The notes beneath the pieces are model-generated. The model did no database searches and had not been told where the DNA came from. It saw only the letters and a program-made list of their open reading frames with translations. From an uncultured bacterium (GTDB lineage Bacteria; Bacillota; Clostridia; Oscillospirales; Oscillospiraceae): 64,000 bases of DNA. Shown here piece after piece: positions 18,203 through 24,779 of the stretch. Every line of letters begins with the position of its first letter. Positions within the stretch are counted from its first letter, which is position 1. The stretch spans positions 32,539 through 96,538 of the forward strand of contig CANDCH010000008.1 in NCBI GenBank assembly GCA_947383145.1. Direction: 5' to 3'. Made by a program: the position numbers and the translations under genes.

Positions 18203-19357
18203 TCACTCCAGATTGGAGGGAAACCAGCCCAGTACCCGGAATTCCCCGGTGGTCTGGGCCAGCTCGTGGAGGGCGTCGTCCACGGCGGGGTCGCCGGGCG
18301 CGCCGGTGAACTCCAGGAAGAACATGTACTCCCAGCTCCGCCCCGGCAGAGGCCGGGACTCCAGCTTGACCATATTCAGCCCGTGAACGGCGAAAACGGT
18401 GAGCACCTCGTGGAGGGACCCGGCCTCGTGGGGCAGGACGAACAGGGTGCTGATTTTGTCCGCGCCGGGGCGCAGCTCCAGCCGGGGGGAGACCACCACG
18501 AACCGGGTGGTGTTCCGGGCGTTGTGGTTAATCCCACGGACCAATATGTCCAGGCCGTAGAGCTCCGCCGCCCGGGCGGAGCAGATGGCGGCCTTCGTCA
18601 AATCGCCGCTGTCCGCCACCATCTTGGCCGACCCGGCGGTGTCCGCCTGGGGCACCTGCTTCCAGCCGGGGTGGGCGTTGAGGTAGCGCTCGCACTGAAA
18701 CAGCCCCTGCTCGTGGGAGTACACGTGGGTGATGGAATCCAGCGACGCGCCGGGCAGGGCCATGAGGCAGTGCTCCACCTTCACGGTGGTCTCGCCCACC
18801 ATATAGCACTCGTACTGGGTGAGCAGGTCGTAGATCTGCCGGATGGCCCCGGTGGAGCTGTTCTCAATGGGGAGCACGGCGTAGTCCGCCCGGCCCTCCC
18901 GCAGGGCCAGGAAGCAGTCCTCGAACTGCTCCAGCCCGGCGGTGTCCGCGCCAGGACCGAAGAAGTCCAGCGCCGCCTGCTCGCTGTAGGCCCCCGGCTC
19001 CCCCTGGTAGGCCACTCGGGGGGCGCTCACGGGCTCCCGGGCATTGGCCTGGGCCTCCCGCCAGCGGCGGACGCCGGGGTTGTCCGCCCCCTGGCCCAGC
19101 ATGTCCCGCTGCTGCCGCCGGGACAGGGCCATGATGGTCTGGAACAGGGTGACCGCCGCCGGACGCAGGGCCTCCCCGGCCAGCTCCCCCTTGTTGCGGA
19201 GCACCTGGCGCTCCCGCTCCTGGTCCAGCACCGGGATGCCCCGCGCCCGCTTGTACTCTCCCACCCGGGCGGTCACGTCCATCCGGCGGCGGAACAGCTC
19301 CACCAGCTCCCGGTCGATGGCGTCGATGTCCCGGCGCAGGCTCTGCAAATCGTCCAT
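18203..19357 (-). CDS. pheA: Bifunctional chorismate mutase / prephenate dehydratase (P-protein)
   Basis: A 384-aa fusion: AroQ-class chorismate mutase at about residues 1-85 (LRRDIDAIDRELVELFRRR), prephenate dehydratase at about 110-290 (YQGEPGAYSEQAA, NSSTGAI) and a C-terminal ACT domain (GSLHEVLTVFAVHGLNM, ESRP) that binds phenylalanine for feedback control. It turns chorismate into phenylpyruvate. It starts 1 nt inside the preceding stop (TGATG). No tyrA lies in the window, so this operon commits chorismate to phenylalanine only. Confidence 0.95.
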   Translation of the reverse strand: MDDLQSLRRDIDAIDRELVELFRRRMDVTARVGEYKRARGIPVLDQERERQVLRNKGELAGEALRPAAVTLFQTIMALSRRQQRDMLGQGADNPGVRRWREAQANAREPVSAPRVAYQGEPGAYSEQAALDFFGPGADTAGLEQFEDCFLALREGRADYAVLPIENSSTGAIRQIYDLLTQYECYMVGETTVKVEHCLMALPGASLDSITHVYSHEQGLFQCERYLNAHPGWKQVPQADTAGSAKMVADSGDLTKAAICSARAAELYGLDILVRGINHNARNTTRFVVVSPRLELRPGADKISTLFVLPHEAGSLHEVLTVFAVHGLNMVKLESRPLPGRSWEYMFFLEFTGAPGDPAVDDALHELAQTTGEFRVLGWFPSNLE

Positions 19358-19845
19358 CAGCGGTATCTCTCCTTTAATCTGGCGTAGTGCTCGGCGTTGG
19401 CCCGCAGGGAGGCGAGCTCCTTCTCAGTGAGGGGGCGGACCACCCTGGCCGGATTGCCCAGCACCAGGGAGCCGTCGGGCGCGTCCAGCTTCCCCGCCAC
19501 CACGGCGCCCCCGCCCACCAGGCAGTTTCTGCCGATTTTGGCGAAGTCCAGCAGGACGGCCCCCATGCCCACGATGGTGTTGTCCCCCACGCACGCGCCG
19601 TGGACGATGGCCCCGTGGCCCACCGAGACGTAATCCCCCAGCACGGTGGGGGCCTTCTCCGAGTGGAGCACGCAGCAGTCCTGGACGTTGCAGCCCCGGC
19701 CCAGCACGATGGGCTTCCCGTCCCCCCGGAGCACGGCGTTGAACCACACGGAACAGTCCGGGCCCAGGGTCACGTCCCCCACCACCACGGCGCCCGGAAG
19801 GATCATAACGCTCTCATCGGTTTGACGCAAAGTTTTCAAATCCAT
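19357..19845 (-). CDS. Gamma-carbonic anhydrase-like hexapeptide-repeat protein
   Basis: A 162-aa left-handed beta-helix protein of the gamma-carbonic anhydrase / PaaY / YrdA group. Hexapeptide repeats run from about residue 18 to 140, and the three metal-ligand histidines fit LHSEKA and GHGAIVHG. Whether it hydrates CO2 is unproven for most of this group. ATG 19845 has a GGGGA ribosome site; a TTG 6 nt upstream is the alternative. It is tightly coupled to pheA, an unusual position within aromatic biosynthesis genes. Confidence 0.88.
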   Translation of the reverse strand: MDLKTLRQTDESVMILPGAVVVGDVTLGPDCSVWFNAVLRGDGKPIVLGRGCNVQDCCVLHSEKAPTVLGDYVSVGHGAIVHGACVGDNTIVGMGAVLLDFAKIGRNCLVGGGAVVAGKLDAPDGSLVLGNPARVVRPLTEKELASLRANAEHYARLKERYR

Positions 19846-19889
19846 GTTCAATTCCCCATTGTTTTGATTTTCCGGCGCTCCCAGGTCAA

Positions 19890-20036: not shown

Positions 20037-21083
20037 TTATAGCCCTAATAACTCACAGGCGGCTAAGGCCGCCGCCGCCTCGATCACCGGCACGGCCCGG
20101 TGGACCACGCAGGGGTCGTGGCGGCCCTGGAGCTCCAGCACGGCGTTCTCGTTTTTGGCCATGTCCACGGTGAACTGCCGGCGGGCGATGGAGGGGGTGG
20201 GGCGCATGGTGACCTCGAACACCAGGGGCATTCCGTTGGTGATGCCGCCGTTGATCCCCCCGGCGCAGTTCTGCTCCGCTTTGATGGAGCCGTCCCCGTC
20301 CACATACAGCGGGTCGTTGGCCTCGGAGCCCCGCATGAGGGCGAAGGCCGTCCCCGCCCCGAAGGCCACCGCCTTCACCGCCGGGACGGCGAACAGGTAT
20401 TTTGAGAAAATGCCCTCGGCGTTGCGGCCCAGGTCCGGCTCCCCCAGGCCGGGAGGCAGGCCGAACACCCCGCACTCGATGGACCCGCCCACCGAGTCCA
20501 GGTCGTTTTTGGCCTCCAGGATGGCGGAGCGCATTTCCGCGCCCGCCTCGTCGTTGAGCACGGGAAAGTCCTTCTGCGCGGCGTCCCGCAGGGACGCCCA
20601 GTCCTCCAGGGCGTCGTCGTTGACGCCGTAAATGGAGGAGATGTGGGCCCCCACCAGCACGCCCCGCTGGGCCAGCAGCTGCTTCGCCACCCCGCCCGCG
20701 AACACCAGGGGGGCGGTGAGCCGCCCGGAGAAGTGCCCGCCCCCCCGGTAGTCGTTAAAGCCCTGATAGCGTGCGCGGGCGGCGTAGTCGGCGTGGCCGG
20801 GGCGGGCCAGATTTCTGGTGCGCTCGTAATCCCCCGGGCGGGTGTCCGTGTTCTCCATGACGGCGCACAGGGGCGCGCCGGTGGTGCGGCCCTCAAACAC
20901 CCCGGAGAGAATGCGGGGCTCGTCCGCCTCCCGCCGGGCGGTGGACAGGCCGTTTTTCCCCGGAGCCCTGCGGCTGAGGTCAAAGCGGACGGCCTCCAGG
21001 TCCAGCTCCAGCCCGGGGGGGACGCCCTCCAGCACCACGCCGATGGCGGGGCCATGGGACTCACCGAATATGGAATACTTCAA
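20037..21083 (-). CDS. aroC: Chorismate synthase
   Basis: A 348-aa flavoprotein that eliminates phosphate from EPSP to give chorismate with reduced FMN. It shows the family signatures FGESHGPAIG at the N-terminus, PGHADYAARARYQGFNDYRGGGHFSGR (about residues 97-123, quoted here only by its ends PGHAD and FSGR), NCAGGINGG and GRHDPCVVHRA. TTG 21083 has GAGG 8 nt upstream and begins right at the conserved block; a GTG 9 nt further upstream lacks a ribosome site. The last codons are echoed downstream at 19890-19927. Confidence 0.92.
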   Translation of the reverse strand: MKYSIFGESHGPAIGVVLEGVPPGLELDLEAVRFDLSRRAPGKNGLSTARREADEPRILSGVFEGRTTGAPLCAVMENTDTRPGDYERTRNLARPGHADYAARARYQGFNDYRGGGHFSGRLTAPLVFAGGVAKQLLAQRGVLVGAHISSIYGVNDDALEDWASLRDAAQKDFPVLNDEAGAEMRSAILEAKNDLDSVGGSIECGVFGLPPGLGEPDLGRNAEGIFSKYLFAVPAVKAVAFGAGTAFALMRGSEANDPLYVDGDGSIKAEQNCAGGINGGITNGMPLVFEVTMRPTPSIARRQFTVDMAKNENAVLELQGRHDPCVVHRAVPVIEAAAALAACELLGL

Positions 21084-21159: not shown

Positions 21160-21189
21160 GGTTACTTTTTCTCTCGAGAAAAAGTAACC
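21160..21189. repeat. Perfect palindromic element at the 3' end of aroA-GNAT
   Basis: Arms GGTTACTTTTTCTC (21160-21173) and its reverse complement (21176-21189) are separated by 2 nt. The element contains the stop codon and last codons of the aroA-GNAT fusion (tail VTFSREKK). No T-tract follows on either strand outside the stem, so it is not a standard terminator. It may be a mobile palindromic repeat. Confidence 0.65.
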
Positions 21190-23414
21190 CAGTACCGCTC
21201 CAGGTCGATGTCCTCTCCCGGCTCGTGGACGGTGCTCTCATACACGCCGCCGTTGGCCAGAATGGTGCGGCGGCTGGCGGGGTTGCCCGGCTCACAGGCG
21301 ATGAGCACCCGGTCCAGGCCGATCTCTTGGCAGAAGGGCAGGGCCAGCCGGAGCATCTCCTTGGCGTAGCCTTTGCGCCGCTCCGAGGGCCGCACAGAGT
21401 AGCCGATGTGGCCGGCGTACTTTTCCAGGTACTCGTTGAAATGGTGCCGCACCTGGAGCATGCCCACCAGCCTGCCGTCCGATTCCCGGACGGCCAGGAA
21501 CTGGGTGGCCTGCACCTTCCCCTCCGGGAGGGTGGCGGGGTCGGTGTAGGAGCGCACCGCCGCCAGCCATTCCGCCGGGGAGCTCATCCGCCGCAGGGGG
21601 CCGCAGCCGTCCATGGAGCTGTCCGCGTCGGCGCACTCCTGACGGTAGGCCCAGACCTGATTCAAATGCTCCTCCGCGGGGAGAACCAGTTTGATTTTGT
21701 CCATCTGTGATTCCTCCGGGGCGGGAAAACGGTAGACCGCCTCACTGCAGTCGAATTCTCCGGTGGGCCGGAAGCCAAACCGCTCGTAGAGCCTCACCGC
21801 CCGGACGTTTTCCGGCGCCACGGTGAGAAAGACATCCCTCCGCCCATACAGGGCGTACATCTCCTGAATCACCAGGGGGAGGGCCTGGGCCCCCAGCCCC
21901 CGGCCCTGGCAGTCCGCGTCGATCATATAGCGGCACAGCAGGGGGACGTTCCCCCGCTCCTCCCACAGGCCGAAAAAGGCGAAGCCCACCGCCTTGCCGT
22001 CGCTGAGAATCAGGCGGCAGGTCCAGGCGGGGTCGTACAGCGCCTGGAGCATGGAAAAGGCGTTGCCGGCCATCCACTGCTGGTCCAGGGGGTTGACGCG
22101 CTCCACGTCGGTGGTGAGGAGGGCGGCCTCCCGCCAGTTGTCCGGCCCGATGGGGGCCAGGGACAGAGCGTATTCCCGCCGGATTTTTCCCCCCAGCCGT
22201 TCATAGTCCTCCCAGAAGCCGGGGTAGGATTTGGCCACGCACTGAGCGCCTGTAAGGGTGATGGGATTTACACACCGGGCGGCGGCAATGGCCGCCATCA
22301 TGGCGATGCGGTGGTCGTTGAAGGCGTCCACCTTTACACCGCCTGCCAGAGCGTCCTTTCCTGTGATGCGGAGGAAGTCCGGGCCCTCTTCCACCTCCGC
22401 CCCCAGGGCGTTGAGCACCTGGGTCACGGAGGAGAGCCGGTCGCTCTCCTTGGCGCGCAGGCGAGCGGCGTTGACCAGACGGGTGGCCTCTCCCGCCCGC
22501 AGCGCCGCCATGGCCGCCAGAGGGGGGACCAGGTCGGGACAGCCGGACACGTCCAGCTCCACGTCCCCAGGCCGCTGCAATGCCAAAGCGTAATCTGCGG
22601 TAATTTTATCACCCTGGGTTGAATCCGGATTCAGGCCGTCCGCATGCACCGGGCTTCCCAAATATTCGGCCGCGTACCAGAACGCCGCCTGGGACCAGTC
22701 CGCCTCCACCACGGCCTCCGCCGCCCGGTAGGTCTGGTTCCCCTGGGGGTGGTACTGGGGGGGCAGGGACAGGGCGACGGGCAGCTCCACCCCGAATTGG
22801 GCCATGGCCTGGAGGGTCATGTGGACGTACCCCTCGCTCTCCAGGGGGGTGGTGGGGACGATGGCGGAAGGGCCGTTCAGCAGGGGCAGGGCGAACAGCA
22901 GCCCGGTGAAGAACTGGGAGGACACGTTCCCCGGCAGGCGGTACTCCCCGGGGGTGAGCTGCCCGGCCACGGTGAGCACGCCGTTCTTCAGTTCGTAGGA
23001 GATTCCCTTTTCGTCGAAAAGATCAAAGTAGGGCTTCAGCGGCCGCTCCATCAGCCGCCCCCGGCCGGTAAAAATCCCGCCCCCCCGCACCGCCAGGGCG
23101 ATGGGGATGAGGAAGCGCAGGGTGGAGCCGCTCTCCCCGCAGTCCAGCCGGGGATACGCCATCCGCCGCAGGGGGGACATGGAATTGGCCCCCATGCCCC
23201 GGACGGTGACGGCGCCGCCGCTCAGCTTGAACTCCGCCCCCAGCTCCTCCAGGCAGCGAAGGGTGGCCCGGATGTCCTGGGAGAGGGCCACATTGGAGAC
23301 GGCGCTCTCCCCGCGGGCCAGGGCGGCGGCGATGAGCAGGCGGTGGGCCTGGGATTTGGAGGGCGGCGGGGCGGCGGTCCCGGCCAGCCGCCCGGGGGTG
23401 ATGGTGATGTTCAT
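21162..23414 (-). CDS. aroA: EPSP synthase fused to two GNAT acetyltransferase domains
   Basis: One uninterrupted 750-aa frame. Residues 1-413 are a complete 3-phosphoshikimate 1-carboxyvinyltransferase (usual length about 430): PPPSKSQAHRLLIAAAL, LDCGESGSTLRFL, SSQFFTGLLFALPLL, KESDRLS and DAFNDHRIAM are all present. Residues 414-564 are a GNAT domain like spermidine/spermine acetyltransferase (PIGPDNWREA, DADCQGRGLGAQAL, NVRAVRLYERFGF). Residues 571-750 are a second GNAT of the COG3981 type (GHIGYSVRPSERRKGYAKEML). At codon 571 an ATG (21702-21704) has GGAGGA 7 nt upstream in frame, so the second GNAT may also be made alone. The start overlaps the aroB stop by 4 nt. The role of the acetyltransferases is unknown. 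Confidence 0.93.
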   Translation of the reverse strand: MNITITPGRLAGTAAPPPSKSQAHRLLIAAALARGESAVSNVALSQDIRATLRCLEELGAEFKLSGGAVTVRGMGANSMSPLRRMAYPRLDCGESGSTLRFLIPIALAVRGGGIFTGRGRLMERPLKPYFDLFDEKGISYELKNGVLTVAGQLTPGEYRLPGNVSSQFFTGLLFALPLLNGPSAIVPTTPLESEGYVHMTLQAMAQFGVELPVALSLPPQYHPQGNQTYRAAEAVVEADWSQAAFWYAAEYLGSPVHADGLNPDSTQGDKITADYALALQRPGDVELDVSGCPDLVPPLAAMAALRAGEATRLVNAARLRAKESDRLSSVTQVLNALGAEVEEGPDFLRITGKDALAGGVKVDAFNDHRIAMMAAIAAARCVNPITLTGAQCVAKSYPGFWEDYERLGGKIRREYALSLAPIGPDNWREAALLTTDVERVNPLDQQWMAGNAFSMLQALYDPAWTCRLILSDGKAVGFAFFGLWEERGNVPLLCRYMIDADCQGRGLGAQALPLVIQEMYALYGRRDVFLTVAPENVRAVRLYERFGFRPTGEFDCSEAVYRFPAPEESQMDKIKLVLPAEEHLNQVWAYRQECADADSSMDGCGPLRRMSSPAEWLAAVRSYTDPATLPEGKVQATQFLAVRESDGRLVGMLQVRHHFNEYLEKYAGHIGYSVRPSERRKGYAKEMLRLALPFCQEIGLDRVLIACEPGNPASRRTILANGGVYESTVHEPGEDIDLERYWVTFSREKK

Positions 23415-24484
23415 AGCGTTTCCTCCAACAGTTCCAGCAGGTCCTTTCGGGGCAGTTTGCGGGGGACGGCATGGCCGGTTTTGTCCAGCAGGATGAGGGT
23501 GATGTCCGCCCCCGCGCTTTTCTTGTCCAGGCCGATGGCGGCGGCGCGGTCCTCCCTGGAGCAGGGGATGGCGATGGGCAGGCCCAGGGCGGACAGAGCG
23601 TTTTCGATTGCTTCCGGCGTCCCCGCTGGGGTGACGCCCAATTTGACGCCCAGCCTGGCCGCGGCGCACATGCCCGCCGCCACCGCTTCGCCGTGGCTCC
23701 ACTCAATATAACGCCCCGCCAGCTCGTAGGCGTGGCCCAGGGTGTGGCCGAAGTTCAGGATCATCCGCAGGCCGGTGTCCAGCTCGTCCTCCATGACCAC
23801 TTGGCGTTTTATATCGCAGCAGGTATACAAAATGTGTTCGATGTCCGCCATCAGCGCTTGCCGGGAGGGGCGGGCGGCCAGGAAATCGAAAAACCCCCCG
23901 TCCCAGATACAGCCGTATTTGACTACCTCCGCCATCCCCGCCATGAACACGGGCAGGGGGAGGGTGTCCAGAGCGTCCGGGTCCATGAGCACCAGGCGCG
24001 GCTGGTAGAAGGCCCCGGCCAGATTCTTCCCGTGGGCCAGGTCCACCGCCACCTTGCCGCCTACGGAGGAGTCCACCTGGGCCAGCAGGGTGGTGGGAAT
24101 CTGGACAAAGGCCACCCCCCGGAGGATGGTGGCGGCGGCAAAACCCGCCAGGTCCCCCACCACGCCGCCCCCCAGGGCCACAACGCCGTCGGTGCGGGTG
24201 AGGCCGAAGTCCATGAAGCCCTCCCACAGAGCCGCCAGCTGGGAGGGATTTTTGCTGTCCTCCCCGGCGGGAACGGCGAACAGGCGGCATTCAAACCCGG
24301 CTGACTCCAGGCCGGCCTTCACCCGGTTGTAGTAGAGGGGGCCCACGGTAGTATCAGTGACCACCGCCAGCTTGCGGGCGCGGGGCAGGACGGCCCGGAG
24401 ACGCTCCCCTGCCTGGGCCAGCAGGCCCCGTTCGATCAGAATGTCGTACTCCCGGCCCGGCAGGGCCACGGTGAGGGTGTTCAT
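23411..24484 (-). CDS. aroB: 3-dehydroquinate synthase
   Basis: A 357-aa NAD-dependent, metal-dependent enzyme converting DAHP to 3-dehydroquinate. Motifs include the NAD-binding GGGVVGDLAGFAAATILRGV (about residue 104), PTTLLAQVDSSVGGKVAVD, and the metal ligands in EVVKYG, NFGHTLGHAYE and SHGEAVAAGM. It overlaps both the XRE gene upstream and aroA downstream by 4 nt, so the three are translationally coupled. Confidence 0.95.
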   Translation of the reverse strand: MNTLTVALPGREYDILIERGLLAQAGERLRAVLPRARKLAVVTDTTVGPLYYNRVKAGLESAGFECRLFAVPAGEDSKNPSQLAALWEGFMDFGLTRTDGVVALGGGVVGDLAGFAAATILRGVAFVQIPTTLLAQVDSSVGGKVAVDLAHGKNLAGAFYQPRLVLMDPDALDTLPLPVFMAGMAEVVKYGCIWDGGFFDFLAARPSRQALMADIEHILYTCCDIKRQVVMEDELDTGLRMILNFGHTLGHAYELAGRYIEWSHGEAVAAGMCAAARLGVKLGVTPAGTPEAIENALSALGLPIAIPCSREDRAAAIGLDKKSAGADITLILLDKTGHAVPRKLPRKDLLELLEETL

Positions 24485-24717
24485 GGCGTACCTCCTTTGG
24501 GGGTGTGGTGGGCCACCTCTCGGATTTCGGTGCGGCCCATGAGCCAGTCAAGGGAAACCTGATAGAATTCCCCGATGGCCAGCAAAGTGTCCCCCCGGGG
24601 AGTTGCGCCCAGTTCAAGGTCCTGATAGCCGCGGGTGGACAGGCCTACTGCCTGGGCCGCATCCGCTTGGGTCAGATGCCGTTCGTTCCGCAGAAGCCGG
24701 ATTCGCTCTGAAAACAT
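24481..24717 (-). CDS. XRE-family helix-turn-helix regulator heading the aro operon
   Basis: A 78-aa single-domain DNA-binding protein (FSERIRLLRNERHLTQADAA, VGLSTRGYQDLELG) with the Cro/C1-type helix-turn-helix at about residues 15-50 and a tail that retains FYQVSLDWLMGRT, typical of small clostridial repressors. ATG 24717 has AAGGGGGAG upstream; six earlier codons are not needed. It overlaps aroB by 4 nt, so its level is tied to the aro enzymes. The upstream control region has a perfect 9-bp palindrome that it could bind, which would give autoregulation of the operon. The signal it senses, if any, is unknown. Confidence 0.85.
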   Translation of the reverse strand: MFSERIRLLRNERHLTQADAAQAVGLSTRGYQDLELGATPRGDTLLAIGEFYQVSLDWLMGRTEIREVAHHTPKGGTP

Positions 24718-24728
24718 GAAACTCCCCC

Positions 24729-24779
24729 TTGACACGAAGAAAACTGTGTGGTATTTTAATATACAGAAAACTGTATATT
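24729..24779. promoter_or_regulatory. Divergent promoter and operator between the XRE gene and the small ORF
   Basis: On the plus strand TTGACA (24729-24734) and TATTTT (24752-24757) have a 17-nt spacer. On the minus strand TAAAAT (24753-24758) with weak TTAATA (24776-24781) could serve the XRE-aro operon. A perfect operator-like palindrome, AATATACAG-N4-CTGTATATT (24758-24779), overlaps both. Its half AGAAAACTGT recurs at 24739-24748. Confidence 0.65.

Follow-up and report, generated by a model that had tools for sequence, protein, structure and literature searches.

The gene for EPSP synthase (AroA) in this genome of an uncultured Oscillospiraceae bacterium continues in frame into two acetyltransferase domains of the GNAT superfamily. 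A previous sequence-only reading described it as one triple fusion; our analysis splits it into two events of different standing. The join between AroA and the first acetyltransferase (GNAT1) is real, occurs in three species that belong to the same Oscillospiraceae genus, and appears to be under selection. The join between GNAT1 and the second acetyltransferase (GNAT2) is found in this assembly only.

The window, a 64,000-nucleotide stretch of DNA analysed here as a whole, lies on a 96.5-kb contig of an assembly 2.48 Mb in size, composed of 58 contigs and 85.4% complete. Positions 21162–23414 on its minus strand form an open frame of 750 residues with a single terminal stop, in which Pfam identifies three domains: EPSP_synthase (residues 7–402; E 1.8e-67), Acetyltransf_1 (461–548) and Acetyltransf_3 (614–722). 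The order AroA–GNAT–GNAT in a single frame is thus as first proposed, and the proposed domain borders were off by no more than a few residues, with AroA ending near residue 413, GNAT1 homology beginning at about 415–417 and GNAT2 starting at Met571. A frameshift between the domains was considered and none was seen, all three lying in one stop-free frame. The gene has aroB upstream and aroC next downstream, and its start codon (ATG, at 23414) shares bases with the aroB stop in the sequence ATGA. The features of the locus are as follows.

23411–24484, minus strand: aroB, the stop of which overlaps the aroA start (placed by tblastn synteny)
22176–23414, minus strand: AroA (EPSP synthase), residues 1–413 (PF00275, E 1.8e-67; relatives in the PDB)
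21717–22175, minus strand: GNAT1, residues 414–566, with the motif QGRGLG (PF00583; in frame also in L068 and L069)
21713–21717, minus strand: GGAGG, 8 bases ahead of the ATG at 21704, the likely ribosome-binding site of GNAT2
21705–21716, minus strand: linker EESQ, residues 567–570, the bases just 5′ of the GNAT2 ATG read as codons
21162–21704, minus strand: GNAT2, residues 571–750 and the stop (PF13302; synteny; a separate gene in relatives)
21160–21189, no strand assigned: near-perfect palindromic repeat ggttactttttctcgagagaaaaagtaacc, holding the end of GNAT2
20037–21083, minus strand: aroC, with a probable TTG start (reading of the open frame; synteny)

The palindromic repeat covers the last GNAT2 residues (SREKK) and the stop codon. 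A related pattern occurs in four copies in the assembly at two mismatches or fewer, and palindrome-like sequence forms the AroA end at loci L071 and L073 and lies 3′ of gnat2 at L015. By eye, two more genes are seen inside the shikimate operon: a small one that is helix-turn-helix-like and separates the DAHP synthase gene from aroB (24481–24735, minus strand), and one that is hexapeptide-repeat-like and lies between aroC and pheA (19357–19851, minus strand).

AroA, the only match of its kind in the assembly, scores 228.4 bits against PF00275 (gathering score 22.8) and, with the whole 750-residue protein as query, 285.4 bits against NCBIfam TIGR01356, just under the cut-off of 287.25. Its alignment with the Klebsiella enzyme extends over the whole length, and its PDB relatives include 7tm4 and E. 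coli EPSP synthase. All six residues that we take to be catalytic in the E. coli enzyme (K22, R27, D313, E341, R386 and K411) are identical in the alignment with 7tm4. The best 50 of 1,131 matches in a fold search are EPSP synthases, AROM proteins and one designed hydrolase. AroA is predicted to make EPSP.

The AroA–GNAT1 frame recurs in two other genomes, where it encodes 574 residues (G022; CATKZP010000011.1, L068/L009) and 570 residues (G014; CATABD010000034.1, L069/L010); in both, the frame stops directly 5′ of aroC and GNAT2 is absent. Three species having the join in frame rules out a chance open frame across it. GNAT1 is 80–86% identical between pairs of the three fused genes, and its dN/dS values for the three pairs (0.36, 0.31 and 0.24) match those of AroA (0.33, 0.34 and 0.33). 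A tail without any use would not be under constraint of this strength, and GNAT1 appears to be kept by selection.

In the three fused genes, neither ATG nor GTG occurs in the stretch that begins 23 codons ahead of the GNAT1 start and ends 19 codons beyond it; this start is the position at which the free GNAT1 relatives L148 and L149 begin with Met. GNAT1 has thus very probably lost its own start and is produced as part of AroA. CTG codons are present around the GNAT1 start in the fused genes; L068 has a TTG 13 codons before GNAT1, with GGAGG only 2 bases ahead of this TTG, and in the window a GTG occurs 20 codons into GNAT1. A separate GNAT1 product initiated at the TTG (L068) or the GTG (window) is conceivable, though improbable.

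The acetyl-CoA motif of GNAT proteins is Q/RxxGxG/A. GNAT1 carries it as QGRGLG and scores 91.5 bits against PF00583 (gathering score 20.7), placing it in the superfamily. Its best PDB matches, and nearest solved relatives, are 2fl4 and 9dsb (E about 4e-12), named spermine/spermidine acetyltransferases, which are free enzymes whereas GNAT1 is fused. The previous description of this domain as spermidine-acetyltransferase-like therefore holds for the names of its nearest relatives, but no polyamine model reaches its cut-off (NF011709, 23.0 of 218 bits; NF053587, 14.7 of 250 bits), nor does any other NCBIfam acetyltransferase model. A small amine would be its most likely substrate, a tentative prediction from these matches. 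In a structure model (pTM 0.57), AroA and GNAT2 are good and GNAT1 is poor (pLDDT mostly 29–57).

The first join is rare. Within the genus, 3 of the 42 genomes have it (2 of 41 besides the window). A query spanning the junction found fused matches only in the window and G022 among 400 genomes of the family, and only in the window among 394 genomes of the order and 391 of the class; these three samples overlap, G014 was not drawn in them, and the query would miss AroA joined to an unrelated acetyltransferase. At 110 loci, a set that includes some genomes twice, the sequence following AroA extends for more than 100 residues in five (from three genomes) and for at most 26 in the others. Further fusions were sought at 14 loci with GNAT1-like matches in frames of 440–697 codons, and none contained AroA at E 1. 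At L189 and L191–L195, the GNAT1-like domain is N-terminal and followed by other sequence, in frames that measure 440–582 codons from stop to stop. Most of the named relatives are metagenome-assembled Oscillospiraceae.

The second join is of a different kind. Window GNAT1 ceases to match its relatives after Pro566; the four EESQ codons follow, and then the GNAT2 ATG. The bases before this ATG, ggaggaatcacag, resemble the leader of a separate gene (for example, gaggaaaattcag in L074), and Met571, with GGAGG 8 bases upstream, corresponds to the start codon of the separate relatives. The putative ribosome-binding site of GNAT2 is thus read as linker in the 750-residue frame. GGAGG lies 5–10 bases before 12 of the 549 internal ATGs in the window, and a looser core before 30 of them, a rough background that includes spurious open frames of at least 200 codons. 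GNAT2 probably arises in two forms, a free protein and the tail of the fusion. Every one of the four linker codons is a single base away from a stop, so that the join could be created or abolished by a single substitution, whether real or an error. Recent merger through loss of a stop, offered previously as an alternative for the whole gene, may account for the second join, with GNAT2 a separate gene in 11 relatives and joined only here.

The open frame, its domains, the shared first join, the constraint on it and the synteny are together best explained by a selected AroA–GNAT1 protein, encoded in the shikimate operon, with read-on into GNAT2 in this genome. One mRNA would bear the shikimate genes, translation of this one beginning at the aroA start codon, which shares bases with the aroB stop, and AroA and GNAT1 would be synthesized as a single chain, one to one. 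Ribosomes would here run on into GNAT2, there being no stop between, to give the 750-residue protein, and a second ribosome entry at Met571 by way of GGAGG would supply additional, free GNAT2 of 180 residues. The joins would most likely serve co-expression and not the passing of intermediates. As a whole, we consider this explanation likely.

Its strongest rival, to which we give a small but real chance, is that a wrong base or a misassembly created the second join, and that the true products are an AroA–GNAT1 protein of about 566–574 residues and a separate GNAT2. The open second join is known from one assembly, the frame stops after GNAT1 in both other AroA–GNAT1 genomes, and a single substitution is enough. 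The sequence-only reading had held that relatives with separate genes, and a one-base sequencing error here, would refute a fusion; for the second join, the relatives do keep GNAT2 separate, and an error of one base would suffice. However, the second join lies inside the 96.5-kb contig, and the frame is open across three domains that keep their motifs. Moreover, the usual GNAT1 tail is missing and the GNAT2 leader begins at once, which a single base error would not yield.

GNAT2 scores 79.6 bits against PF13302 (gathering score 25.4), carries the acetyl-CoA motif RRKGYA and has weak solved relatives only (four PDB sequences at E 0.01). The 11 relatives that have it as a gene of its own between aroA and aroC are 10 named contigs and L158; there is in addition one remnant (L084) and one copy cut by a contig end (L092). 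It is 58–82% identical to the 10 separate copies aligned, with a dN/dS of 0.24–0.44 against five of them, indicating constraint. The aroA–aroC gap exceeds 200 bases at 17 of the 80 loci at which it was measured (window and L158 counted), and these 17 contain 11 intact GNAT2 genes and one GNAT2 remnant, a share inflated by the GNAT2 peptides in the locus query. Other contents are another GNAT (L106), a nitroreductase-like gene found by scanning at L101 and a second recognized by eye at L113, an Rce1-like protease (L077) and a gene without a Pfam match (L143); at L076, further genes lie alongside GNAT2. The slot between aroA and aroC thus seems open to cargo. GNAT2 adjoins aroC in two other genera too (L158 and L171). 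Compared with the window, L158 (genus g53) is 82% identical in aroC, 76% in GNAT2, only 61% in AroA and 51% in an aroB fragment.

These contents bear on the idea that the gene encodes a functional multi-enzyme protein linking acetylation to the shikimate pathway, for instance by acting on a pathway compound or a related amine. Retention of the AroA–GNAT1 join under constraint in three species is consistent with it, as are the position of GNAT2 beside aroC in two other genera and a GNAT1-like gene (40% identity over 98 residues) near the DAHP synthase gene at L155 (G295, also genus g53), the latter gene being 57% identical to that of the window. By contrast, the nitroreductase-like, Rce1-like and other unrelated genes occupy the same slot, and the free GNAT1 relatives L148 and L149 are not adjacent to aro genes. 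We found nothing in support of the specific suggestion that a shikimate-pathway compound is acetylated. A functional tie of the acetyltransferases to the pathway is possible but unproven, and we regard this explanation as improbable. Slightly less probable still is a three-enzyme protein in which both GNATs would act on a shikimate product, substrate or inhibitor at a fixed dose, the nested start adding free GNAT2; if true, this would be an undescribed link of aromatic synthesis to acetylation in gut-type bacteria. That a GNAT fused to its target enzyme acetylates an EPSP synthase inhibitor such as glyphosate is very improbable: the physical join and weak GNAT1 matches to phosphinothricin/arsinothricin acetyltransferase models, far under their cut-offs, would agree with it, but no glyphosate acetyltransferase entry is among the 27 (GNAT1) and 4 (GNAT2) PDB matches at E 0.01.

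Trees were compared for AroA and for the products of neighbouring genes, with rows drawn from 82 loci with aroA. In the AroA tree (42 rows), the window pairs with L070 (support 94), which has aroA, a stop and then gnat2, and in which GNAT1 is absent. In the AroB and AroC trees (15–16 rows), the window and L070 fall outside the groups holding L068 and L069 (support 93 and 89); the window is absent from the pheA tree. Simple shared descent may not account for the first join, the AroA tree grouping the window with a GNAT1-less locus, and the aroA segments look mosaic. The alternatives are repeated loss of GNAT1 and a spread of the AroA–GNAT1 end between species by recombination. A transfer that put this end before a separate gnat2 without a stop is attractive but unproven. 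A gnat2–aroC block may also have moved between genera, judging from L158.

Fusions of AroA to other enzymes are known. AroA–cytidylate kinase (NF008816) and TyrA–AroA (NF011381) likewise chain AroA to another enzyme, and the AroA part of our protein matches both models, but the partner here is a GNAT and the scores (179.9 of 943 and 109.8 of 902 bits) are far below the cut-offs. The pentafunctional AROM protein of fungi likewise holds EPSP synthase within a multi-enzyme chain; its partners are shikimate enzymes, whereas here they are acetyltransferases. The separate gnat2 genes (L070, L078, L158 and others) are of the same family and in the same place, with their own stop ahead of them, whereas GNAT2 of the window is read on from AroA–GNAT1. 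Multi-domain EPSP synthases are rare in bacteria and plants, where they mostly have two domains, according to one study (PMC9394408). A literature search, thin on subscription journals, found no AroA–GNAT protein in print, in line with the previous statement that no described AroA–GNAT–GNAT protein was known. The protein represents a new architecture among AroA fusions rather than a new type of system.

The genus displays stages of fusion side by side: a separate gene, a fusion without a start codon of its own, and a fusion that keeps both start codon and ribosome-binding site. Should the first join function in the way it appears to, an acetylation step would be dose-tied to aromatic synthesis in these bacteria.
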